Shown: positions 1 to 63,483 of the stretch, piece after piece
How the letters are laid out: every line of letters starts with the position of its first letter
Position numbering within the stretch: the first letter of the stretch is position 1
Source: a virus
DNA: 64,000 nt
Reading direction: 5' to 3' (one strand)
IMG/VR virus record: IMGVR_UViG_3300008116_000058
Coordinates: 1-64,000 of that record
Notes under the pieces: model-generated
What the model was told of the DNA's origin: nothing
Seen by the model: the letters and a program-made list of their open reading frames with translations, nothing else
The model's database searches: none
Made by a program: the position numbers and the translations under genes

Positions 1-1440
1 GAAACCAACCAAGATGGTGTTTTCAACCATGTATGGGTTCTTGTAGACTTGGAAACGACTTGCGAAGTTACCAACCTTGCTTACACCCATTGCGAACTTG
101 GCGCTGTCACCATCAGTGTTGACAACGAAGCCTGGAATTGACTCCAAGATTGTTGCAACGTCTGGTGAACAGACGAGGAAGTTAGCACCACCACGGAGGG
201 TCAATTGGTGAATCTTGTTGCTGACCTTTTGGATCTTGTTACCAAGAGTTTGGAACCAAGTTGACTTGGTGTAGTATCCACCGGTACCAGCGGTTGTGGT
301 ATCAGTGATGACTCCACTGTCGCTGATTTCACGGTTGATCTTAGCGCTCCAACGTGAGGTGGTTACGCTTGGAACGTTGGTGATCAACATGTCAAGGATT
401 TCGAGGTCGATTTCCATTGATACGTACTCACTCAAGAGAGCAGTCAATTCTGCCTCTGCGTCGATGCTGTGGTAAGCATTCAAGTCTTGAGCAAGTTCAG
501 GTGTCCAAACGGCCTTCAACTTACGGGTCTTGGCAACGATTGGCTCACTCTTCAACTCAAGGTTAACTTCAGGGATACCGATTGAGCTCAAGCTGTCGGT
601 TGTGGTCTTGTCTTCGAAATCACCACGATTGCTGTCCTTAGGTTGTACACTGTAGTTAACGGTCAAGCTAGCAGAAGCTGGGTTTGAACCGGAAACAACG
701 AAGGTTACTTCTGAACCATTGATTGAGGTCAATGATGGGAAGTAGGTGTTGATGCTACCTGCGGTGATGGTGAATGAACGAACACCGTTGGCGTCGAACA
801 CGTTACCAGCAGCACTTGAAGCACTGTACAAGTTGGTGGTGGTCAAAGTGAAAACTTCGCCAGCAGCAACAGATGCACTGAAGGTTGCGTCATAGTTAAC
901 GCCACTCAAACTTGACACAGCAGCGCGGGTAGCGGTGATGTGATTGATTGATTGATCGTTAATTGAGTAACCGAAACGACCTGCACCGTAGAGACCACCA
1001 GTTGCACTATCGGTTGAACCGAGCTTGGTGCCGGTACCGCCGAAGAGTGAACTATAGTTGTTTGATGCATCCTTAGTGAAAGCACCGTTGTTGGTACCAT
1101 ACTTGAAGTCTAAATAGAAGATAAGACCGCTTGGGAGGTTCATTGGTTGAACGCTCACAAACTCCTTAGCAGCGATTTCAGCAAACACACGGCGAACGAG
1201 TGGGAGAGCAACGCCTGCCCATTGTTCACTGTTTGATGAAGTACCGGTTGCGGTAGCTTCGTCAAGAAGTTGCTTTGCTTGGTTTTCAAGAAGGATTGAC
1301 ATGTTTGCCTTCTCGACGCCATTTAGGCCTTCGAGCAAACCAGTTTGATCCCACTTTGATTGTAGTCCACGGGTCTTGGCCATAAGCTCTGCCTGTGGAT
1401 TCATATTTGTTGTTAGAAGTGACTTTACATCAGCACTCAT
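1..1440 (-). CDS. 23: Major capsid protein, T4 gp23-like (3' end beyond window)
   Basis: Forms the hexameric lattice of the head. The frame is open from the ATG at 1440 to base 1, so 480 residues are visible and the C-terminus is missing. The segment KTRKLKAVWTPELAQDLNAY followed by IDAEAELTALLSEYVSMEID matches the most conserved part of T4 gp23 (KSRQLKAAYSIELAQDL, then MDADAELSGIL). Residues 58-61 read LLDE followed by Ala: an L-x-E site placed like the T4 gp21 cleavage site at E65/A66, so the first about 61 residues are probably removed at maturation. The middle (about 130-250) is a Ser/Thr/Gly-rich insertion unlike T4. A Shine-Dalgarno AGGA precedes the start. It is the last gene of the head run seen here, 42 bases after the scaffold gene. 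Family assignment is firm. Confidence 0.95.
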   Translation of the reverse strand, partial: MSADVKSLLTTNMNPQAELMAKTRGLQSKWDQTGLLEGLNGVEKANMSILLENQAKQLLDEATATGTSSNSEQWAGVALPLVRRVFAEIAAKEFVSVQPMNLPSGLIFYLDFKYGTNNGAFTKDASNNYSSLFGGTGTKLGSTDSATGGLYGAGRFGYSINDQSINHITATRAAVSSLSGVNYDATFSASVAAGEVFTLTTTNLYSASSAAGNVFDANGVRSFTITAGSINTYFPSLTSINGSEVTFVVSGSNPASASLTVNYSVQPKDSNRGDFEDKTTTDSLSSIGIPEVNLELKSEPIVAKTRKLKAVWTPELAQDLNAYHSIDAEAELTALLSEYVSMEIDLEILDMLITNVPSVTTSRWSAKINREISDSGVITDTTTAGTGGYYTKSTWFQTLGNKIQKVSNKIHQLTLRGGANFLVCSPDVATILESIPGFVVNTDGDSAKFAMGVSKVGNFASRFQVYKNPYMVENTILVGF

Positions 1441-7196: not shown

Positions 7197-7808
7197 TTAT
7201 TTAACTTCAGAGATTATATCGTGAATCAACGATTCAATTTTTGCGTATTTGTTTACAGTAGTATTTTGTACAGACTCATTCAATGCACCAGTTGGAAATA
7301 AAAATGCTCCTCTGGTCGATGGATTACTTACAAAATCAAATGCAATAAGTTCAAAATCGTCTTGAACTTCATCTGCATTTTCTCTTACATTTTTACGTAC
7401 ACTTCCTAAACCACGACTACTAATACCCAACTTAATACCGGCCTTAAAAAGTGCTTTTAAAATATTACCACTTGGTGTAGGAAGTATTTCTACTTTACCA
7501 ACCAAATCATCACCATTCCACATCATTTCAACAACGTTATGACTGACGTTTTGAAGATTGACAACGCTACTGTCCGGATGGTCAAGTTCACCCAATGCAC
7601 GGCGTTCTTTTACGAAGTTGTCTTCATACTTCTTGACTTCACGTTCCAAAATATCTTTTGGATATACACGACCGTTTTGATTCTTTGCGTTTGCACGTTG
7701 AAGAACACCTTGCACGATCATAGATTTTGATGGATCGTCAGTTGCTTCATTCAACTGTCCACCAATTGGTTCAAAGAAAATCCAACCTGTTTGTACTGTT
7801 TTATCCAT
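7197..7808 (-). CDS. 21: Prohead core protease, T4 gp21-like (peptidase family S80)
   Basis: 203 residues, close to T4 gp21 (212). It cleaves scaffold, capsid and internal proteins at L-x-E or I-x-E sites during head maturation. GELDHP at 73-78 supplies the catalytic His (H77), and the serine loop is GISSRG at 128-133. The early segment on making a new gene product with local variation (NQNGRVYPKDILEREVKKYE) is also typical of the family. L-N-E occurs at 19-21 and again near residue 178, which would permit self-cleavage. It lies between a gene with a capsid-targeting-like N-terminus (7811-8350) and the frameshifted head gene, with only 2-3 base gaps. Assignment firm. Confidence 0.93.
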   Translation of the reverse strand: MDKTVQTGWIFFEPIGGQLNEATDDPSKSMIVQGVLQRANAKNQNGRVYPKDILEREVKKYEDNFVKERRALGELDHPDSSVVNLQNVSHNVVEMMWNGDDLVGKVEILPTPSGNILKALFKAGIKLGISSRGLGSVRKNVRENADEVQDDFELIAFDFVSNPSTRGAFLFPTGALNESVQNTTVNKYAKIESLIHDIISEVK

Positions 7809-7810
7809 AA

Positions 7811-8350
7811 TTAAGCTTGTTTTTTCTGTTGTGGTTGTGCAACGTATTGTGTTTGTGGCATTGGCTTAGCGGTTTGAATTGCAACTTGTCCACCTTTTGT
7901 TGTTGCTTTTGTTCCCGGTTCAGCAGTTTTTGGTTCTTTAGGCTTTTCTATCTTTAATGGTTCACCTTGACCCAAAATTGTAATCTTGAATCCGGGCTTC
8001 AAAAAGTATTCCTTATCATCCTCGTCACGTAGAATTACTACATAACGATCATAAAAATAGTCAAGACTGGTACTTGTTACTGAGATTTCATAATCACGAA
8101 CAGGTTGACCGTATCCTTTGGATGCTTGTATTGATACCTTCTTACCCAAAACTCTATTGTTCAAATTTTGTAAGAATGCTGCTTTTGATTCAGCCGTTGT
8201 TCTTGCAATCTTTGCTTCAAAATCACTAAAATCTGAACTAACATTATAGTCTACAGAAGTAGCAGGCAATGGTTGACCGCCCGCAGTCGATGTACCAAAA
8301 TGTTGAGGATCGTTTTCGTCCTCGGTAAGTAATTTGACAAGTGAAATCAT
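7811..8350 (-). CDS. Putative internal head protein with capsid-targeting-like N-terminus
   Basis: 179 residues, no recognised domain. The first ten residues MISLVKLLTE end in L-T-E at positions 8-10, the spacing of the T4 internal-protein targeting sequence MKTYQEFIAE, which gp21 cleaves after E10. Three more genes in this window share the pattern. The middle (about 40-120) looks like a small beta-rich domain; the last 50 residues are Lys/Pro/Gln-rich and disordered. It lies directly upstream of the gp21 gene, where T4 keeps prohead core genes. A packaged core protein is inferred; the sequence itself only shows the N-terminal pattern and the location. Confidence 0.75.
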   Translation of the reverse strand: MISLVKLLTEDENDPQHFGTSTAGGQPLPATSVDYNVSSDFSDFEAKIARTTAESKAAFLQNLNNRVLGKKVSIQASKGYGQPVRDYEISVTSTSLDYFYDRYVVILRDEDDKEYFLKPGFKITILGQGEPLKIEKPKEPKTAEPGTKATTKGGQVAIQTAKPMPQTQYVAQPQQKKQA

Positions 8351-10010: not shown

Positions 10011-11918
10011 TTATTCTAGTATGTTAGATTCATCCATCATGGATTTTTGTTTATTTTCGGAAATCAATGTTTGTTTTTCTTGTTTTGCAGTCTTGAGATA
10101 TGAGTCTAAAGTAGTCAATTCCTTATTGATACTTTCAAGACTAAACGGTGAAGATCCTGTGAACTTATGATTTGGGGATCTATCTGCTTTAAAATCCCTA
10201 TTCATTTCAAGATGACCGAGTGGATCTTCTCCGAATGGATAATTACTGGCCTTTTTCAATCCTTTTTGAGACGGACGTTCATAGTCTGGCTTTGACTTTT
10301 CCTTCAATGTAGGAATTTCTGCACCACCAGCTTCTCCTCCACCAGCAGGAGCGGATTCACCGCCAGCTTCTCCACCGGTTTCACCGCCTCCACCACCGCC
10401 ACCGCCACCGCCTTCTTCTGGACTAACTTTTTGGAATGACTTGGCAGGATCATTACCTTCTTCTTCAATCTGTTTAAATCTGTATGTCTGTTTTGCGTCA
10501 TCAACAATATCGTTTTTGATATTGTTCATGTCATCATCTGACATATGGAAAATTTCGTTGTATACCCACTTTTTACTAAACAACTTATTATCCAACATGT
10601 CTTTAGCGACAGATACCTTATTTGACCAAATGTCGATCTTTTCCTTTTCAAATACCGTTGATGGATTGGTAAGTTCCAAACTAAAATCAACCAAACTTGA
10701 ATCTCTGTATCCTTGTGCATACAAGTGTACAATACCAATCTTGGTCAATTCACTGATAAGAATTTGTTGAATACGTTGAATTGTACGAGAAAAACGAACA
10801 TCTTCTTGTGCCAATGTAGCTTTACCACTCAAATCTTCATCATAACTCAAGAACGCCTTAGGTATCTTGAGAGCAGCCATCATTTTCTTACGCAGATATT
10901 CAATATCGTCCGTGCCAGTGAATTCCATGCCACTAAGAGATTCAATGCTGGTACCACTATCACCACCACGAACAGGAAGATAAAAATCTTCAACCATGTT
11001 TTGAAGATTGAAACGAAGATTGTAATCACCACTTTTTTCATCGATATATGGTACCTTTTTGGTTTTAGCAATCAACTTTTCCATATATGAGTCAATCTCG
11101 TTTGGAGGAATATTACCAACGTCAATCTTGAAAATACGTTTTTCAGGAGCACGCATAATACGATGAATCAACATTGCGTCTTCCATCAAACTCAATTGTT
11201 TCCAAACGCGACGAGCACCTTCCAACATACTCTTACCATATGGCAAGAAGTTACTATCACTCAATAAACGAAAATGTGCTACTTGATAGTTTTCAAGATC
11301 TTCGACCTTACCACCGTCAGGTAGGTTGACTTGAAATTTGATATAGTTCTTATTATACAAATCACTGTTTTCAACACGGGTTACATTATAAGCACTAATT
11401 GGCTCAATCATATAAACTCCGTACTCGGGACTGATATAAAGTCTAAGATAAAAATCGCCGTACTTACACATGTTACGAACATAACTCCAAAGGTTAAATT
11501 CGATATTCATGATATCATAATACAAGTTACGAAGTATCTGTTTGATATTATCATTTGGTGTATTGATCACCAAAACATCTCCCATTTCGTTACGTGTCAA
11601 TGATTCATCCGCGTAAATATCCAATGCAGAACTAAGAATTGGATCCATGTCCATCGTATCATAATCTCTGAATAATTCGATACGAGCGGCTTGATAACTA
11701 AGGGTGAAATCTCTACTATACTGATTGTACGCAGAAGTACGAATACGATTAAAACGGTCACGTAGTGTGTTTCTATCCGTAGCGTATGCTACTTCATCGG
11801 TATCTACTACCTTTAACTTTTTACCACCAACGTTACGTACAATAACGTCTGTAGAGAAAAGTCTCTTAAGACGAGCAAATAGTGATCTGCTCTTTAAATC
11901 TGTCGGTTGATCTGCCAT
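10011..11918 (-). CDS. 20: Portal vertex protein, T4 gp20-like
   Basis: 635 residues (T4 gp20 is 524). It forms the dodecameric DNA entry channel and initiates prohead assembly. It starts with Leu/Arg-rich KSRSLFARLKRLFS, followed by SRDFTLSYQAARIELFRDYD, TMDMDPILSSALDIYADESL and PYGKSMLEGARRVWKQL, blocks characteristic of gp20-type portals. The AEKR-type stretch MRAPEKRIFKIDVGNIPPNE is also diagnostic. The C-terminal 130 residues are an addition: a run of ten glycines near residue 507 in a Gly/Glu/Ala tract, then a helical tail. It is directly downstream of the large terminase, as in T4 relatives. Late-motif variant at 11940. Confidence 0.95.
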   Translation of the reverse strand: MADQPTDLKSRSLFARLKRLFSTDVIVRNVGGKKLKVVDTDEVAYATDRNTLRDRFNRIRTSAYNQYSRDFTLSYQAARIELFRDYDTMDMDPILSSALDIYADESLTRNEMGDVLVINTPNDNIKQILRNLYYDIMNIEFNLWSYVRNMCKYGDFYLRLYISPEYGVYMIEPISAYNVTRVENSDLYNKNYIKFQVNLPDGGKVEDLENYQVAHFRLLSDSNFLPYGKSMLEGARRVWKQLSLMEDAMLIHRIMRAPEKRIFKIDVGNIPPNEIDSYMEKLIAKTKKVPYIDEKSGDYNLRFNLQNMVEDFYLPVRGGDSGTSIESLSGMEFTGTDDIEYLRKKMMAALKIPKAFLSYDEDLSGKATLAQEDVRFSRTIQRIQQILISELTKIGIVHLYAQGYRDSSLVDFSLELTNPSTVFEKEKIDIWSNKVSVAKDMLDNKLFSKKWVYNEIFHMSDDDMNNIKNDIVDDAKQTYRFKQIEEEGNDPAKSFQKVSPEEGGGGGGGGGGETGGEAGGESAPAGGGEAGGAEIPTLKEKSKPDYERPSQKGLKKASNYPFGEDPLGHLEMNRDFKADRSPNHKFTGSSPFSLESINKELTTLDSYLKTAKQEKQTLISENKQKSMMDESNILE

Positions 11919-11958: not shown

Positions 11959-13557
11959 TTATAATAACCAAGTTAAACTCTCTTTTTGATCTTTTAGTCC
12001 GGTAGGCATTTCCCACGACTGTTGTGCATTTGCGTTTTTTGTAGTATACACAGGAGAGCTTTGTTGTTCAGATCTATTGATACTACCCAACATATTACGA
12101 GTCATATCTATTGATTGTTGACGTAATTTCAAAGCGGTATCACGTACCCACAATCCAATTGCAAATGACATTACCAAATCATCATTGTAATTCTTCATTG
12201 CCTCGGCTTTACCATTATTCCAAATAAACGTATACAATTCATCAATTGTACGTGTTGACTGAATATTTATGGTCTTTTCACGCATATAACTTTCTAATCG
12301 TGAAATAATCAACTGTCTTGTTACAGATGTTGTAGTAAACCCCGGAGTCATCTTCTTTTCGACAGAATGGATTCGATTGGTCATTTGATGTTCCACGTCT
12401 ACATATTTTAAATCAGCACTACTATAAAACAAATTAGGATATTTTCTATCCAAGATTTGTTGAATTGTGCCCCAACCAATATTTAAATTTTCTACAATCA
12501 ACAAGGCGTTGTTATATTCTGTAGCAACATTGACCAACATATTGCCATAATCTTTGGTTCCAATTTGTCCTTTGTATTCCGCAACCTGCGTAAAACTTTC
12601 AATATCAATTACGTGAAATGCACTATAGTCGCCTCCATCACCACGAGCAACGTCCGCACATACCAAATATGAACGTGTATAGTCTGGATATTCCCACAAC
12701 CACAACAATTTATCCATACCTCTAGTTTCGACAGGAGCACGTACTTTTGTCTGTTTATAGAAATCAAGAATCGGCACATCAACTACAGTATTACCTGATG
12801 TAGCAAAGTCACAATCACATTCTTGTGCGGCCATCTTTGGACCAAGCAATTTTGTTTGTTCATCTCTCCAAGTTTGATCACGTTCAGGATGAAGATGCCA
12901 TGGCAAACGTATCGTGTGAAACTTATTCTTTTTACCTTCAGCTTCTACCCAAGTTTTATGAAAAAAGTTACCAACACCGTTTGGTGTTGATAACACGATT
13001 GCTTTACCACCAGTTGATAGTGTCGATTGTGCCGATGTCCAAATTTCATCGATGTTATCAATAAATGCGGCCTCGTCAATAATCAACATTGATAGTGCGG
13101 CCGAACGACCAGCGGTACCAGAAGATGATACGGCTTTAATTTGTGAACCATTCTTAAGACGCAATGATAGACGATTATCTTCGACACATGGAACTTTCAA
13201 CCAACTTGGAAGATTGTCATTGGCAAAACGTACACGGGTAACAATTTCTTTAGATGTTTCTTGTGTAATACTGATACACAAAATATTTTTGTCACTATTA
13301 AATACCATCAACCACAAACTATACGCACTACACAATGTGGTAATACCAAGCTGACGACTTTTTAAAATAATGTTATAGTCGTTATCAATAATCTCCTGTA
13401 GAGAATCATCTTGAAAAGGATATAATTCAAATGGTATTGTACCTCGTTTAGGATGTTGAATCTTGACGTACTTCTTCATAAAGTACATCGGGTTTTCAAG
13501 ACACTTTTTATATTCTGCCTTGATGATATCTCTTAACGATTTTTGATCATTCGACAT
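11959..13557 (-). CDS. 17: Terminase large subunit, T4 gp17-like
   Basis: 532 residues; ATPase and nuclease motor that packages DNA. Walker A is KSRQLGITT at 66-74, where T4 has SRQLGKTT: the usual Lys is Ile here, and K66/R68 in front may take over, as in other phages with the deviant form. Walker B is LIIDEA at 158-163, and VLSTPNG is the coupling motif. The RNase H-like nuclease starts at VCADVARGDGGDYSA (about 300), and NYNDDLVMS near residue 480 supplies its last acidic residues. The start overlaps the upstream gene by 11 bases, like T4 genes 16 and 17. Assignment firm. Confidence 0.95.
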   Translation of the reverse strand: MSNDQKSLRDIIKAEYKKCLENPMYFMKKYVKIQHPKRGTIPFELYPFQDDSLQEIIDNDYNIILKSRQLGITTLCSAYSLWLMVFNSDKNILCISITQETSKEIVTRVRFANDNLPSWLKVPCVEDNRLSLRLKNGSQIKAVSSSGTAGRSAALSMLIIDEAAFIDNIDEIWTSAQSTLSTGGKAIVLSTPNGVGNFFHKTWVEAEGKKNKFHTIRLPWHLHPERDQTWRDEQTKLLGPKMAAQECDCDFATSGNTVVDVPILDFYKQTKVRAPVETRGMDKLLWLWEYPDYTRSYLVCADVARGDGGDYSAFHVIDIESFTQVAEYKGQIGTKDYGNMLVNVATEYNNALLIVENLNIGWGTIQQILDRKYPNLFYSSADLKYVDVEHQMTNRIHSVEKKMTPGFTTTSVTRQLIISRLESYMREKTINIQSTRTIDELYTFIWNNGKAEAMKNYNDDLVMSFAIGLWVRDTALKLRQQSIDMTRNMLGSINRSEQQSSPVYTTKNANAQQSWEMPTGLKDQKESLTWLL

Positions 13558-14176: not shown

Positions 14177-14932
14177 TCATTCGATGAATGTATCATCAAA
14201 AACTTTAATAGCTTTCGAGTATGATTTTTTGGTTTCATCACTGACGTTATCTGTATATTGCCAGTTCCAAAATAACTCTTGTGGAGTATTAAATCCGTAA
14301 AATTCCAGTACAGCTTTTTGTGTTTGTGTAACATCTTTTCCATTCCAGTTTTGACCAATAGCAATAACACCAGCATCAATATTCTTAACAATATTGGATT
14401 CACCAAGGGTTGAATGACGGTTTTCAATCCACGTCAAACGTTCTATTAGTTTCTGATAAATACTGTTGGTCTGTCCCCAACGTATAGATGTAAAAAATAA
14501 AACTACATCACTCTCAAATAATGGTTTGCTAATCTTCCAAAGTTCATCTGATTTGTTATTGATACTTGCCCAACAACGATGATATCCAGTTGGATCTTTT
14601 TCTTTATCTTTTAACACCGCACCTTTTTCTCCACAATGATTGCCCCACTTGGATGACACATTTCCTTCACATACAAAAATATTGAGTTTGCTTGCATCAA
14701 TAAATTCACACTTATCACTACCCAATCTTTCACAAACTAACTTAGCCAATTTAGTTGACTTTGCTTCATCGTCCTTATGACCTTCCCAACGATTTGATGT
14801 GCCAATCAACAACACTTTCTTTTTGGTTTGAAGATACTTGATTGTGTTATCTAGCCGCAATTCATTTTTTTCCATGTCTTTTTGACTGGAATTCGCAGCA
14901 GCTTCAACCAAAAAATCGGAGAGTTTTACCAT
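14177..14932 (-). CDS. Flavodoxin-like (NADPH-dependent FMN reductase type) protein with capsid-targeting-like N-terminus
   Basis: 251 residues. From residue about 38 the sequence has a flavodoxin-like fold: KKVLLIGTSNRWEGHKDDEA (phosphate-binding loop after the first strand), a Cys pair region, then SDVVLFFTSIRWGQTNSIYQ, the family's active-site strand and loop, and a C-terminal helix. Such proteins bind FMN and use NAD(P)H. The first ten residues MVKLSDFLVE have L8-x-E10 exactly like the T4 internal-protein signal, and residues 11-37 form a linker, so cleavage would release the enzyme inside the head. Packaging is inferred; the fold call is fairly secure. It is flanked by the putative gp16 position and a tail structural gene; late motif 7 bases before the ATG. 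Confidence 0.8.
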   Translation of the reverse strand: MVKLSDFLVEAAANSSQKDMEKNELRLDNTIKYLQTKKKVLLIGTSNRWEGHKDDEAKSTKLAKLVCERLGSDKCEFIDASKLNIFVCEGNVSSKWGNHCGEKGAVLKDKEKDPTGYHRCWASINNKSDELWKISKPLFESDVVLFFTSIRWGQTNSIYQKLIERLTWIENRHSTLGESNIVKNIDAGVIAIGQNWNGKDVTQTQKAVLEFYGFNTPQELFWNWQYTDNVSDETKKSYSKAIKVFDDTFIE

Positions 14933-14939
14933 ATCGTCC

Positions 14940-14947
14940 TATAAATA
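14940..14947 (-). promoter_or_regulatory. Candidate late promoter motif TATTTATA
   Basis: Seven bases upstream of the flavodoxin-like gene ATG, in the gap after the structural gene. Confidence 0.5.
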
Positions 14948-17319: not shown

Positions 17320-20300
17320 TCACTGGAAATTAATCCGTGAAAACCCAGCATCTTTGACGATCTCAAGACGGGTATCAACCATGTCTTTGAGTACATCCAA
17401 GTGACTAACAACCCAAACAAAGTCAAAATTACTCTTCAAGAATGAGAACAAATTAGCCATGGCAGACAAATGATCACTATCAGCACATCCAAACCCCTCA
17501 TCAATAGCAATAAAGTTAGGACGTGGTAGATTGGATACATTGATCAACGCAACTCTAATAGCCAACGAACTCACAAACTTCTCTAACCCACTTGCCAATT
17601 CCAAAGGCCACTTCTTGTCATCGTAAACAATGTATGCCATAATGTTCTTGCCATCAGTCTGAAACGAAACGGTAAACTCAACAATCTGATTAAGTATGTT
17701 GTTAACCTCAGATTCAATACCAGGCAACGCCTTAGAGATAATTTGATACTGAAGTCCATCTCTGGAAACGGCATCCACATAATAAGTGTAAGCATTATGA
17801 ATCTTTTCAGTCTCCTTCATTTCAGCAATCTTGGCTTCAATCTGAGACTTCTGATAGGTCCAATTGTTGATCTTACTCTTGGTGTCGGTAATATTAGAGT
17901 TAACATTACGAATGTTAAAGTCGATGTTCTTAATGTTTGCCTTAATGTCATCAATCGCCTTTTGAACCTTAAGATTCGATTCAATAGCGTCCTTTGCATC
18001 ATAATATTCTTTAATCTTAACTTCAATCGATTCCAACAAGTTCTTTTCCTTTACAATCGTATTCTCACGTTGTAATTGAAGATTTTCAAGATTAGAAATA
18101 TTCTTGGTTAACGTTGTTAGACTGTTAAGAAGATTTCTATACTCCTGAAATTGATTAGCAACAGTTTCAACGACACCCAACTTGTTTTTCACAGTAGTCA
18201 GTTTTTCAATCAGACCTTTAGCTTCAATCTTATCATTTTCAAGATCTTCTTTAGTCTTGATTGCATCTTGAACAAACACGTTGTTAACACAGAATGTACA
18301 ATTTGGATCATACTTGTGGTTTTCAAGTTTCTTCAACTTATCCAACTTATTTGTAACAATCAACTTCTTACGTTCCAACTGTCCTTCAATGTTAGACGCT
18401 TCCAATTTCAAAGTATTATACTCCGAATACTTGGACTCAATATCATCAGACTTGAACTTTTCAACCTTGTCATTGATTGGCTTGATGTCATTCTTCAACT
18501 TCTCAATGTTGGGAACCTCGGTATCATACTTCAACTGTTCACTGACGATTTTTCTGTCGGTATTAATACGTTGTGTTTCCAATCCACTTATATCAGTAGT
18601 TGTGACATTCACCTTGATCAACTGCTTAGTTGTCTCAGCAATCTTCTCATTTTCAACTTCACGACTATCCGTTAATGTTTTTAGTTCTTCGTCCTTTAAA
18701 CGAATAACAGATTCAGCATTATTGATATTGGTAGTCAATGTCTCCAACTCTGCGTTGTAATCGGTCTTGGCAAAGTTCTTCATCAAGATTGCCCATTCAC
18801 GCATCTTGTCATTTGCCAGTCCGTGCAACTTATCAAATATAGTAAGTCCCATAAACTGTGCCAATAGATCCTTACGTTCAGTCTGACCAAGATCAATGAA
18901 AGAACCAGTCTTACTGTTCTGAATACTCAATACAGTTAAAATAAAGTCATCATAAGTTCCAACATAATCACGAATCAAATCGTTAGTATTACGACGTGCT
19001 TCACCGTTGAGTTCAATTACTTGACCCTTTTCTTCTTTCCAAAAACGTACATCAACCTTGACGCTTCCTTTTTTATCAGCGTGACCAATACGTTCAATAA
19101 AGTAATCAACCTTATCAATTTCAAAGTTAAACTTACACTTGAACGACATCTTTTGTGTATTCATTACGTGAACGGCTTTAAAAGCACGATCACACTTGTC
19201 AAATATACAAAAGGATAATGCCGAAAGAATACTGGATTTGCCACTTGCGTTTGCAGCAAATAGTCCCACAACGTCTTTCATTTTGCTAAAATCAATTACA
19301 TTACCTTCGCCGTAACTGAACATATTATCAAACTCAAACCGTTTTGGCTTCCATCGAATATTCTTAGCGGTTAAATCCTTGACAATTTGATCATTCAACT
19401 CCTTGTTGATCTTTTCAACCTCACGAATCAAAGAGTCAGGAATATTAGTATGTTTATCTTGAAGATATTCCGCAATCAATTTGTTCTGATACGAAATATT
19501 TGAAAGACCGTGAATATTCAAATTTGGAACCGTTGAATTGTTCACACTTGAGGCCAACTGGTCCACACGTAGATAATTGATATCAACAATCTCAGTATGT
19601 TCACGAATCTGTGAGATGACCGTCTTGAGTTCAGTTGCAACCGACTCAAATGCTTTGATTCGAAGCGTGGTTTTCTTTGGAATATCCGTCAAATCGGTAA
19701 TCAAAGTTCCTTTGTTAACCTCGACAGTAAAATATCCATGGTCGTTCTTTACCTCAACGTGTTTGAATTTGAGAGTCTTCAAATCCCAATAAACAAACCC
19801 ATGACCTTTCAATTCTTCACCATGGTTCTGTTGAATCAATGAACCAGAATACACAACCACGGGTTTACGAATCTTTTCATCAATAACGTGATAGTTCTGA
19901 AGAATCTGATGACGATGAATATCACCCAACAAAATAATTTGATGTCCATCAAACAGTTCGTTTTTGGTGTTACTCGTAACTTTATACCCAATGTCAGTTA
20001 CAGCACTATCAACTGGTCCATGATATAGTCCAATATGATAAGAAGTGTTATTAACATAAATCTTGGGAATCTTTTCAAACTTAATATAATTCTCAGGTGA
20101 ATGTTCATCAAATACCGAGAAGTTATTGAACAAGATATCACCCAACTGATACACACCAGTATCCTTTAGATAAAAAAGATTTGGGTGTTTAAGAGCGTTA
20201 ACAATAGGACTCAAACTATCCAACCTGTTTTTGTTGGTTAGAGTTGCGTCATGGTTTCCAGCAGTAAGTATGGTTGGACGACGATCTGCCAAGTTTTTTA

Positions 20301-20529
20301 GAAACTGAGACGCAATTTCTACGCACTCAGGACTAAGATCACTCTTGTTGTGAAACACGTCACCCACCACACAAATAGCAGTGGTCTCGGGTGTCTTTTC
20401 AATTGCCTTATATAGGTTCTTGAACACCTCTGTATATTCCGCATGACGTTTAGTTAACAAAATATGAATGTCTGCCACGTGCAGAATATTCGTAAAGTTT
20501 GAAACGTCACAATTTAGTTTTGTAATCAT
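17320..20529 (-). CDS. Fused Mre11-Rad50 recombination nuclease (T4 gp47 + gp46 in one chain)
   Basis: 1069 residues in one uninterrupted frame. Residues 1-330 are a calcineurin-type phosphoesterase like gp47/SbcD: ADIH at 19-22, VGDVFHNK at 55-62, GNHD at 91-94, H170 in YHGP, and LGDIHRH at 201-207. Residues about 340-390 form a helical linker. From about 393 an SMC-type ATPase like gp46/SbcC begins: Walker A AANASGKSS at 425-433, Q-loop region, long coiled coil with a zinc hook CTFC near residue 700, signature ELASGLEKFVSSL and Walker B FIAIDEGFG followed by WVVSHLD near the end. In T4 and hosts these are two genes. The complex resects DNA ends for recombination-dependent replication. The family call is firm and the fusion is read directly. 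Confidence 0.95.
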   Translation of the reverse strand: MITKLNCDVSNFTNILHVADIHILLTKRHAEYTEVFKNLYKAIEKTPETTAICVVGDVFHNKSDLSPECVEIASQFLKNLADRRPTILTAGNHDATLTNKNRLDSLSPIVNALKHPNLFYLKDTGVYQLGDILFNNFSVFDEHSPENYIKFEKIPKIYVNNTSYHIGLYHGPVDSAVTDIGYKVTSNTKNELFDGHQIILLGDIHRHQILQNYHVIDEKIRKPVVVYSGSLIQQNHGEELKGHGFVYWDLKTLKFKHVEVKNDHGYFTVEVNKGTLITDLTDIPKKTTLRIKAFESVATELKTVISQIREHTEIVDINYLRVDQLASSVNNSTVPNLNIHGLSNISYQNKLIAEYLQDKHTNIPDSLIREVEKINKELNDQIVKDLTAKNIRWKPKRFEFDNMFSYGEGNVIDFSKMKDVVGLFAANASGKSSILSALSFCIFDKCDRAFKAVHVMNTQKMSFKCKFNFEIDKVDYFIERIGHADKKGSVKVDVRFWKEEKGQVIELNGEARRNTNDLIRDYVGTYDDFILTVLSIQNSKTGSFIDLGQTERKDLLAQFMGLTIFDKLHGLANDKMREWAILMKNFAKTDYNAELETLTTNINNAESVIRLKDEELKTLTDSREVENEKIAETTKQLIKVNVTTTDISGLETQRINTDRKIVSEQLKYDTEVPNIEKLKNDIKPINDKVEKFKSDDIESKYSEYNTLKLEASNIEGQLERKKLIVTNKLDKLKKLENHKYDPNCTFCVNNVFVQDAIKTKEDLENDKIEAKGLIEKLTTVKNKLGVVETVANQFQEYRNLLNSLTTLTKNISNLENLQLQRENTIVKEKNLLESIEVKIKEYYDAKDAIESNLKVQKAIDDIKANIKNIDFNIRNVNSNITDTKSKINNWTYQKSQIEAKIAEMKETEKIHNAYTYYVDAVSRDGLQYQIISKALPGIESEVNNILNQIVEFTVSFQTDGKNIMAYIVYDDKKWPLELASGLEKFVSSLAIRVALINVSNLPRPNFIAIDEGFGCADSDHLSAMANLFSFLKSNFDFVWVVSHLDVLKDMVDTRLEIVKDAGFSRINFQ

Positions 20530-22376: not shown

Positions 22377-22384
22377 TATAAATA
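22377..22384 (-). promoter_or_regulatory. Candidate late promoter motif TATTTATA
   Basis: In the 31-base gap between the adhesin gene and the 98-residue gene, 20 bases before the ATG at 22356. Confidence 0.5.
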
Positions 22385-39474: not shown

Positions 39475-39894
39475 TTACATCATTGATACTGAAGCAGATG
39501 TTGTTGTACCACCAGACTTCTTTTTATCAATCGCCTTCATCAATGCAGAATAATTTTTTGTCAAAGCTTGTGCCACCGGAGCAGGTGCATGATCCAAATT
39601 GTCCATCACAGATGGTGGTGACGATAATGACGATGCAACCATGTCACCTTCTCTTGGAATACCACCCACAGTTTCATTCAATGCTTTGTTTAAAAGTTCA
39701 TTTTGTGTGTACTTTTTGAACTCTCTTTTGACTGGCTGTTCCTTAACAATCGGTTTCTTCGATGCACTAACCGTTGTTTCTGTGACTTTCTGACTCTTTT
39801 GAGTGAAAATCTCAGCCATGACTTCTGGTAACGCGGCACGGACTTCTTCCTGTACCATCTCTCTTATTAGTTGTCTCAATGATTCTTTTGTCAT
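39475..39894 (-). CDS. Small baseplate-region hypothetical protein
   Basis: 139 residues from the ATG at 39894 (an upstream alternative at 39912 adds six residues). The N-terminus MTKESLRQLIREMVQEEVRA is an amphipathic helix with an I-x-E site. The centre is Lys/Pro-rich and the C-terminus disordered with Ser/Thr. Between the hub-like gene and gp25, where T4 relatives keep gp53-like or chaperone genes. No recognised domain. Confidence 0.7.
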   Translation of the reverse strand: MTKESLRQLIREMVQEEVRAALPEVMAEIFTQKSQKVTETTVSASKKPIVKEQPVKREFKKYTQNELLNKALNETVGGIPREGDMVASSLSSPPSVMDNLDHAPAPVAQALTKNYSALMKAIDKKKSGGTTTSASVSMM

Positions 39895-48712: not shown

Positions 48713-48720
48713 TATAAATA
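48713..48720 (-). promoter_or_regulatory. Candidate late promoter motif TATTTATA
   Basis: Seven bases upstream of the Ig/IPT gene ATG, in the short gap after phoH. Confidence 0.5.
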
Positions 48721-61757: not shown

Positions 61758-62159
61758 TTAGTTATGCATATTACTACCAGCTCCATATCCATTTTGTAAT
61801 TTTGGAGTATTTAAGATTTCATCTTTTGGATCTGGATACACACTGAAAAAATAATGAATGTCATCATTCTTTTTATTTGTGGAATATAATAAAAAATTTA
61901 CATTACCATTTGGATGTCCTCTACCGTCAAATATATAATAATATTCAGGATCAGTGCCAGATAAGGCTGCTTTTGGCACATCTTTAACATATTTAAAGAA
62001 CACCTCCGAAGATATTCTATATACATTATCATCATCACCTAATGTATTTTGCATCCACATAGCCGGTTCTGTAGAATCATCACCCAATCCAAATTGACAT
62101 ATTAATCCTACACAATTACCCAAATATTGTTCTTTTAGTAAACTTGATAATTTAATCAT
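61758..62159 (-). CDS. Putative internal head protein with capsid-targeting-like N-terminus
   Basis: 133 residues from the ATG at 62159. MIKLSSLLKE (L8-K9-E10) matches the ten-residue pattern of T4 internal proteins. The remainder (QYLGNCVGLICQFGLGDDST, then YYYIFDGRGHPNGNVNFLLY and HYFFSVYPDP) is a small beta-rich domain of unknown function. It lies among tRNA genes; late motif 3 bases before the ATG. Confidence 0.75.
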   Translation of the reverse strand: MIKLSSLLKEQYLGNCVGLICQFGLGDDSTEPAMWMQNTLGDDDNVYRISSEVFFKYVKDVPKAALSGTDPEYYYIFDGRGHPNGNVNFLLYSTNKKNDDIHYFFSVYPDPKDEILNTPKLQNGYGAGSNMHN

Positions 62160-62730: not shown

Positions 62731-63483
62731 TTAAGTACTAACTGGTTTCTTTGGATAAGGTTGAACTGGTTTAACCAAGTTTGCCAGAATGTTCTTTCCT
62801 TCACTAGAGTTTGTACCGGATAAAATGTAAATATACTTATGTTTACCGTAATCAATCCGTAATTCAAACGGACTGTCAGGATTTGTTTTTAAATCACGAA
62901 CTGCATCTCCAGCAGTTTTAAATCCATATTTTTCTATCTGCGGTTTTCTATTAACCCATCTATCTTCATTTTTATCCCACAAACGTTTTCTAGTTCTACT
63001 CTTACCTAGATAAATTGCGTTTGTAGCTTGATATACAGTGCCAGTGTGTCCTTGTTCACTATCAGACCGAGTAATAATTACTTTTACTTTAGGATAATTT
63101 TGTTTGATCGTTTTATTACCTAATCCAATTACGTATGATGCCAAATTATTTTTTAATTCAGGTATTTCTTTCACTTCTGGTTTTAGATATAATCTTAACA
63201 ATTCTAATAATTCATTCTGTTTAAGTAAACTATTACCTTTATCATCCACAGCTATTTCTTGAAAATCTTGTGGCTTGGTAGTCTGTCCATATACAATAAC
63301 CCCAACCATATCTACATTGCCATCAGGCATCTTGTACATCACACCATAATTAACAGTAACCGCTGTTGGATACTTCTTTAGATAATGTTTGTTTATAAAG
63401 TCTATAACCTCAGACTTACTCTTTGGTTCTAGATATACACTATCTTTTAGAGATTCTATCAACAAACTCTTAAATGTTATCAT
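62731..63483 (-). CDS. Putative internal head protein with capsid-targeting-like N-terminus
   Basis: 250 residues from the ATG at 63483; an in-frame upstream start (63591) would cross the late motif. MITFKSLLIE (L8-I9-E10) fits the targeting pattern. Residues about 10-130 are alpha/beta (SEVIDFINKHYLKKYPTAVT; VDMVGVIVYGQTTKPQDFQE). Residues 140-245 contain NAIYLGKSRTRKRLWDKNED and FELRIDYGKHKYIYILSGTN, basic and possibly nucleic-acid binding. The C-terminus is Pro/Lys-rich. No family recognised. A packaged DNA- or RNA-acting protein is possible. Confidence 0.75.
   Translation of the reverse strand: MITFKSLLIESLKDSVYLEPKSKSEVIDFINKHYLKKYPTAVTVNYGVMYKMPDGNVDMVGVIVYGQTTKPQDFQEIAVDDKGNSLLKQNELLELLRLYLKPEVKEIPELKNNLASYVIGLGNKTIKQNYPKVKVIITRSDSEQGHTGTVYQATNAIYLGKSRTRKRLWDKNEDRWVNRKPQIEKYGFKTAGDAVRDLKTNPDSPFELRIDYGKHKYIYILSGTNSSEGKNILANLVKPVQPYPKKPVST

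Follow-up and report, generated by a model that had tools for sequence, protein, structure and literature searches.

The flavoprotein encoded on the minus strand at 14177-14932 begins with ten residues that resemble a T4-type capsid-targeting sequence (CTS), and the enzyme is probably packaged in the virion head by means of this tag and released into the host together with the DNA. It is best read as a new cargo of a known T4-type targeting system. The window, i.e., the whole stretch of DNA analysed, covers 64 kb out of an 80,068-bp virus record. The flavoprotein family is uncharacterised and NAD(P)H:FMN/quinone-reductase-like, and its carriers are uncultured T4-like viruses of (mostly freshwater) bacteria. 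A packaged flavoprotein had been proposed in an earlier note on this DNA, and it is the reading best supported by the present analysis, which found a tag confined to viral copies, conservation at the T4 CTS positions, the same tag on effector-like proteins, a gp21 protease and a matching site in the major capsid protein.

Gene and Genomic Setting

The minus strand of the window carries a T4-like head/tail module with a large terminase, a portal, a gp21-type protease and, at the left end, a gp23-type capsid protein. The features that bear on the gene and on processing are as follows.

1258..1269, minus strand: LLDE^A (^ marks a predicted cut) at residue 61 of the major capsid protein (ORF 1-1440, minus strand), probably corresponding to the site at which T4 gp23 is processed
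7197..7808, minus strand: gp21-type prohead protease, the presumed processing enzyme (phrog_207, E=2e-57)
14177..14932, minus strand, stop codon included: flavoprotein gene, 251 aa, decapeptide-tagged, intact ORF with ATG start
14940..14947, minus strand: TATTTATA, 7 nt before the start codon, in coding-strand reading (the plus strand reads TATAAATA)

The start codon is well defined, with an in-frame stop two codons 5' of the ATG and no alternative start between them, and the upstream in-frame stop is also present in near relatives. The neighbours of the gene are the terminase (11959-13557), the portal (10011-11918) and the gp21 protease. The location in a head/tail region, as first described, thus holds in this window, where terminase, portal and protease adjoin, but not in the relative G001, in which the gene lies about 65 kb or more away from the head genes and still has the tag. 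The capsid protein of G001 has LIDE^V at the site corresponding to LLDE^A, and the specificity of the protease presumably matches the tag. Elsewhere in the window, positions 17320-20529 read in translation as one ORF of 1069 aa, an apparent fusion of an SbcD-like phosphoesterase and an SbcC-like ATPase (T4 gp47 and gp46).

The late motif that the earlier note saw at 14940-14947, TATAAATA, lies on the plus strand, opposite the flavoprotein gene. A T4-type late promoter is rejected here because the gene strand reads TATTTATA and TATAAATA precedes only 2 of the 68 phage genes. On the coding strand, TATTTATA precedes 13 of the 68 within 60 nt, mostly at 3-20 nt from the start codon (e.g., window 14940-14947, 22377-22384 and 48713-48720).

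The N-Terminal Decapeptide

In T4, residues 4 and 7 of the CTS determine targeting and residues 8 and 10 determine processing, with cleavage after L/I-X-E (PMC9026906). The N-terminus of the flavoprotein reads MVKLSDFLVE^AAANSS and comprises two parts.

14903..14932, minus strand: capsid-targeting-like decapeptide MVKLSDFLVE, predicted cut after Glu10, from position conservation and the pattern on unrelated proteins
14876..14902, minus strand: variable linker, residues 11-19 (AAANSSQKD), largely missing in cellular relatives

Every close viral relative whose 5' end is intact has the decapeptide (102/102), and the close phage copies match M[IV]xLxD[FLI]LxE, followed by a variable linker some nine residues long. 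Residues L4, L8 and E10 are invariant or nearly so, and position 7 is F, L or I. The 49 distinct 5' ends use six codons for Leu4, three for Leu8 and two for Glu10, so that codons 4, 8 and 10 are under purifying selection; residues 5, 9 and 12-15 are free to vary. The ten-residue signal proposed earlier is borne out as a tag conserved in viruses only, with the T4 CTS positions and selection at residues 4, 8 and 10, and its cleavage is predicted. The 27 residues once assigned to a linker shrink to about nine (11-19). The helix at residues 20-35 belongs to the conserved domain, since the cellular relatives have it and most of them start there, near residue 20 of the phage protein (the first domain helix). 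Along the whole protein, variability is greatest at residues 11-24.

More distant phages carry variants of the tag on the same enzyme (MMSFSKYITE, MRSFSSFINE, MIKLKDLLSE, MSRFLKLLEE and MNLEQIYTQVILE), which are recognised only by loose regular expressions with a background of 0-2% at internal sites. In one viral clade (L121, L129, L140, L147, L165 and L168) the enzyme has no tag. A gp21-type protease is nevertheless encoded in three records of this clade (G011, G013 and G016), so the enzyme need not be packaged to be useful; G011 and G016 also have other tag-like N-termini. The flavoprotein tree suggests several changes of the tag. Independent gain on separate lineages is not claimed, because AU tests do not reject uniting the tagged clades (p 0.38 and 0.63).

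Fold and Predicted Flavin Site

22 of 66 relatives match Pfam FMN_red (E<0.01; best E 5.6e-7) and three relatives score just below the cut-off; the window protein itself gave no match to Pfam, NCBIfam or PHROG models. The AlphaFold (AF2) model built from this 66-sequence alignment has a mean pLDDT of 92.9 and a pTM of 0.89; it replaced an initial, poor model from 17 close sequences (pLDDT 64). In a Foldseek search of the PDB, all of the top 50 fold matches are flavodoxin-like flavoproteins, including SP1951 with FMN (the best, E=1e-7), RosB, NQO1/2, azoreductases, ArsH, WrbA and SsuE, at moderate TM-scores of about 0.4-0.6. The model and the structure search, both matching FMN enzymes, agree with the flavodoxin-like fold named at the outset, and the modelled fold is flavodoxin/FMN-reductase-like with predicted FMN binding. 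In the PDB sequence search, a partial, C-terminal match to NE0241 (E=0.0035) was dismissed as chance and nothing else was credible.

14180..14875, minus strand: flavodoxin-like/FMN_red-like domain, residues 20-251 (AF2, Foldseek against PDB, cellular homologs, Pfam FMN_red in relatives)
14756..14803, minus strand: predicted FMN-phosphate loop, residues 44-59 (GTSNRW...KS), with T45, S46, R48, K58 and S59 invariant
14573..14671, minus strand: loop with three cysteines, C88, C100 and C120, invariant in 66 viral and cellular sequences
14465..14488, minus strand: SIRWGQTN loop, predicted flavin contact, with R151, W152 and G153 invariant in 66 sequences
14339..14356, minus strand: GQNWNG loop, predicted isoalloxazine contact, with N195 and W196 nearly invariant

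The flavin and phosphate contacts of these loops are presumed by analogy to the FMN_red family. TSxR...KS, RWG and the cysteines 88, 100 and 120 are unchanged across phage and chromosomal sequences in the alignment. The three-cysteine loop is a possible metal or Fe-S site, and we take it to occupy the same place as the cysteine loop of iron-sulfur flavoproteins (Isf). The Isf signature is a compact C-x2-C-x2-C-x4-7-C motif. Membership of Isf is rejected, as the spacing here is C-x11-C-x19-C with only three cysteines; a cluster with other spacing is possible.

Relatives in Viruses and Cells

Two scans of IMG/VR each confirmed at least 500 related viral loci, and a tblastn search of cultured phages gave no match to the flavoprotein. 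A GTDB scan found 36 loci in cellular assemblies that encode relatives with 49-62% identity, from CPR bacteria, DPANN archaea, Sulfurovum, Methanoregula and others. The cellular copies look chromosomal because the neighbours in the nine cellular contigs inspected appear to be ordinary cellular genes. In L104, the enzyme appears joined to a 5'-nucleotidase. This fusion was discounted as probably an artefact of assembly or deletion, since a similar nucleotidase gene stands downstream in L086.

The Same Tag on Other Proteins

A test pattern for the tag, derived from flavoproteins only, was applied to 20 genomes. Besides the flavoproteins, 13 unrelated proteins of this phage and three relatives (G000-G003) start with it; the remaining 16 genomes gave no such protein, and 0 of 7039 internal Met in the 20 genomes matched. 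A close variant of the pattern was found on 0 of 365 ORFs in cellular contigs. Across 103 largely redundant loci, a similar pattern stands on 188 ORFs, against 0 of 5581 internal Met. Between different tagged families, similarity beyond the tag is undetectable, except in one weak pair in G001. Three tagged proteins lie in the window.

7811..8350, minus strand: tagged protein MISLVKLLTE, 179 aa, adjoining the protease (tag pattern)
61758..62159, minus strand: tagged protein MIKLSSLLKE, 133 aa, no family (tag pattern)
62731..63483, minus strand: tagged Mom-family protein MITFKSLLIE, 250 aa, its start an internal Met of the ORF (PF25680, 1e-26)

The Mom-family protein is possibly a packaged DNA-modification or acetyltransferase-like enzyme. 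Past the right edge of the window, this phage encodes a tagged ART-PolyVal ADP-ribosyltransferase (PF18760) at L204:187-1014 (G000 64187-65014), possibly the counterpart of Alt, the ejected, gp21-processed ADP-ribosyltransferase of T4 (PMC5694885). The tagged proteins of G001 include a PARP-type transferase, a GNAT-lysozyme and a LigT/Acb1-like protein, and a further relative has a tagged J-domain protein.

Several other arrangements were observed. At L194:12646-17045 (G001 72646-77045), five tagged genes, including those of the GNAT-lysozyme and the LigT/Acb1-like protein, fall within 4.4 kb and look like an effector island. In relatives, the flavoprotein gene is one of three tagged genes in succession (L208:17578-19910; G003 77578-79910). 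The third gene of this row encodes 344 aa and its family was counted 60 times in the 103 loci; its SVKIDG is reminiscent of a ligase nucleotidyl motif, and there is no Pfam match. In the cultured Flavobacterium phage immuto (L315:9869-10456), an NT5C-like nucleotidase has the tag-like N-terminus MGNLADLLLE. A second recurring N-terminal type, roughly M-x3-5-LxxLI[KR]E-x2-3-EV, is carried by several proteins in these phages and in cultured Immutovirus (window 39475-39894, MTKESLRQLIREMVQEEV; G000 69050-69610; G001 18706, 19482 and 196268; L315:13189; L316:31525). With its L/I-X-E site, it may be another head-core tag.

Proposed Mechanism and Alternative Explanations

According to the proposed mechanism, the phage would have placed a T4-type capsid-targeting sequence ahead of a cellular-type flavoenzyme. 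During assembly, residues 1-10 would dock the enzyme in the prohead core, the gp21-type protease of the phage would cut behind Glu10 (FLVE^A), and the freed enzyme of about 27 kDa would be kept in the head and leave it together with the DNA at ejection. Once inside the next host, the enzyme would bind FMN and function as a small reductase, with flavin, quinone or thiol/Fe-S chemistry, ahead of any phage gene expression. We infer each of these steps, from packaging and cleavage to ejection, FMN binding and catalysis, as well as the benefit that the phage would gain.

The same protein could instead be an ordinary enzyme of phage metabolism, made and used inside the infected cell, with an N-terminal helix that helps in assembly or tethering and has nothing to do with the head. 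The untagged viral clade in phages with a gp21-type protease, where the enzyme can be useful unpackaged, and the presumably cytoplasmic cellular relatives are consistent with this explanation. We regard it as improbable, as the tag is conserved at the T4 CTS positions, stands also on unrelated effector-like proteins (ADP-ribosyltransferases and LigT/Acb1), and is accompanied by a matching protease. A packaged protein might also do its work inside the head rather than in the host, for example as part of the core or by guarding the redox state of capsid cysteines. The position of the window gene between terminase and neck/tail genes would fit this, and T4 has some core proteins with L-X-E sites that function and are destroyed within the head (PMC5694885). 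However, a structural role needs none of the predicted FMN-site and Cys residues that are invariant from phage to cellular enzymes, and the G001 gene lies far from the head genes, which makes action within the head very unlikely. Least probable of all is a dead flavin site in a binding or decoy protein with a flavodoxin fold. The window protein has no sequence-family match, a large insertion with three cysteines and a flavin binding that is predicted, but all predicted flavin-contact positions are equally conserved in phage and chromosomal copies.

For the packaged and ejected enzyme, an altered redox state of the host is a conceivable effect; the effect on host nucleotide synthesis that the earlier note suggested is speculation without specific support. 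A wider proposal, which we put forward tentatively and hold to be rather doubtful, is that one shared N-terminal tag lets T4-like phages of (mostly freshwater) bacteria bring in a flavin reductase made beforehand, together with ADP-ribosyltransferases, anti-CBASS-like phosphoesterases and acetyltransferases. At entry, the reductase would then either disable an early host defence that depends on redox state or prime the reductant of the host. The only reason to favour counter-defence is that the other proteins bearing this tag resemble effectors. If the packaged reading is true, a virion-borne redox enzyme would be conserved in at least 500 viral loci without a family entry, and the tag would allow a sequence-based readout of the packaged effector set in uncultured T4-like phages. 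Phage action on the host before gene expression would become testable even for phages that have not been grown. An ejected redox effector would also be a chemistry newly added to virion effectors, among which a non-exhaustive literature search found no description of an ejected flavoprotein or of redox chemistry.

Comparison With Known Systems

The nearest systems for the tag are the internal proteins IPI-IPIII and Alt of T4, which are targeted by a CTS, processed by gp21 and ejected. Features in common are an N-terminal propeptide of ten residues whose determinants lie at 4/7 and 8/10, an L/I-X-E cut after Glu (predicted here), a gp21-type protease and ADP-ribosyltransferases that bear the tag. 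Unlike in T4, the tag here reads M[IV]xLxx[LFI]LxE, and the predicted cargo is a flavin redox enzyme without a known T4 counterpart.

The enzyme itself shares its fold with the FMN_red/Flavodoxin_2 NAD(P)H-dependent oxidoreductases (SP1951, SsuE, ArsH, AzoR, NQO1/2 and WrbA), and likewise the loops predicted to hold phosphate and flavin. The flavoprotein differs from them in an identity of about 10-17%, in a 33-residue loop with three invariant Cys, in scores below or near the family cut-off and, in the phage copies, in the added tag. The Synechococcus phage S-N03 NADPH-dependent oxidoreductase and the WrbA-like protein of Myoviridae sp. ctgXL3 likewise combine a flavodoxin-like fold with a tailed phage, but these FMN oxidoreductases have only 10-14% identity to the flavoprotein. 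The chromosomal homologs of CPR, DPANN, Sulfurovum and Methanoregula are uncharacterised and share 49-62% identity over residues ~20-251, with the same Cys and flavin-loop residues, whereas the N-terminal tag is absent from them.
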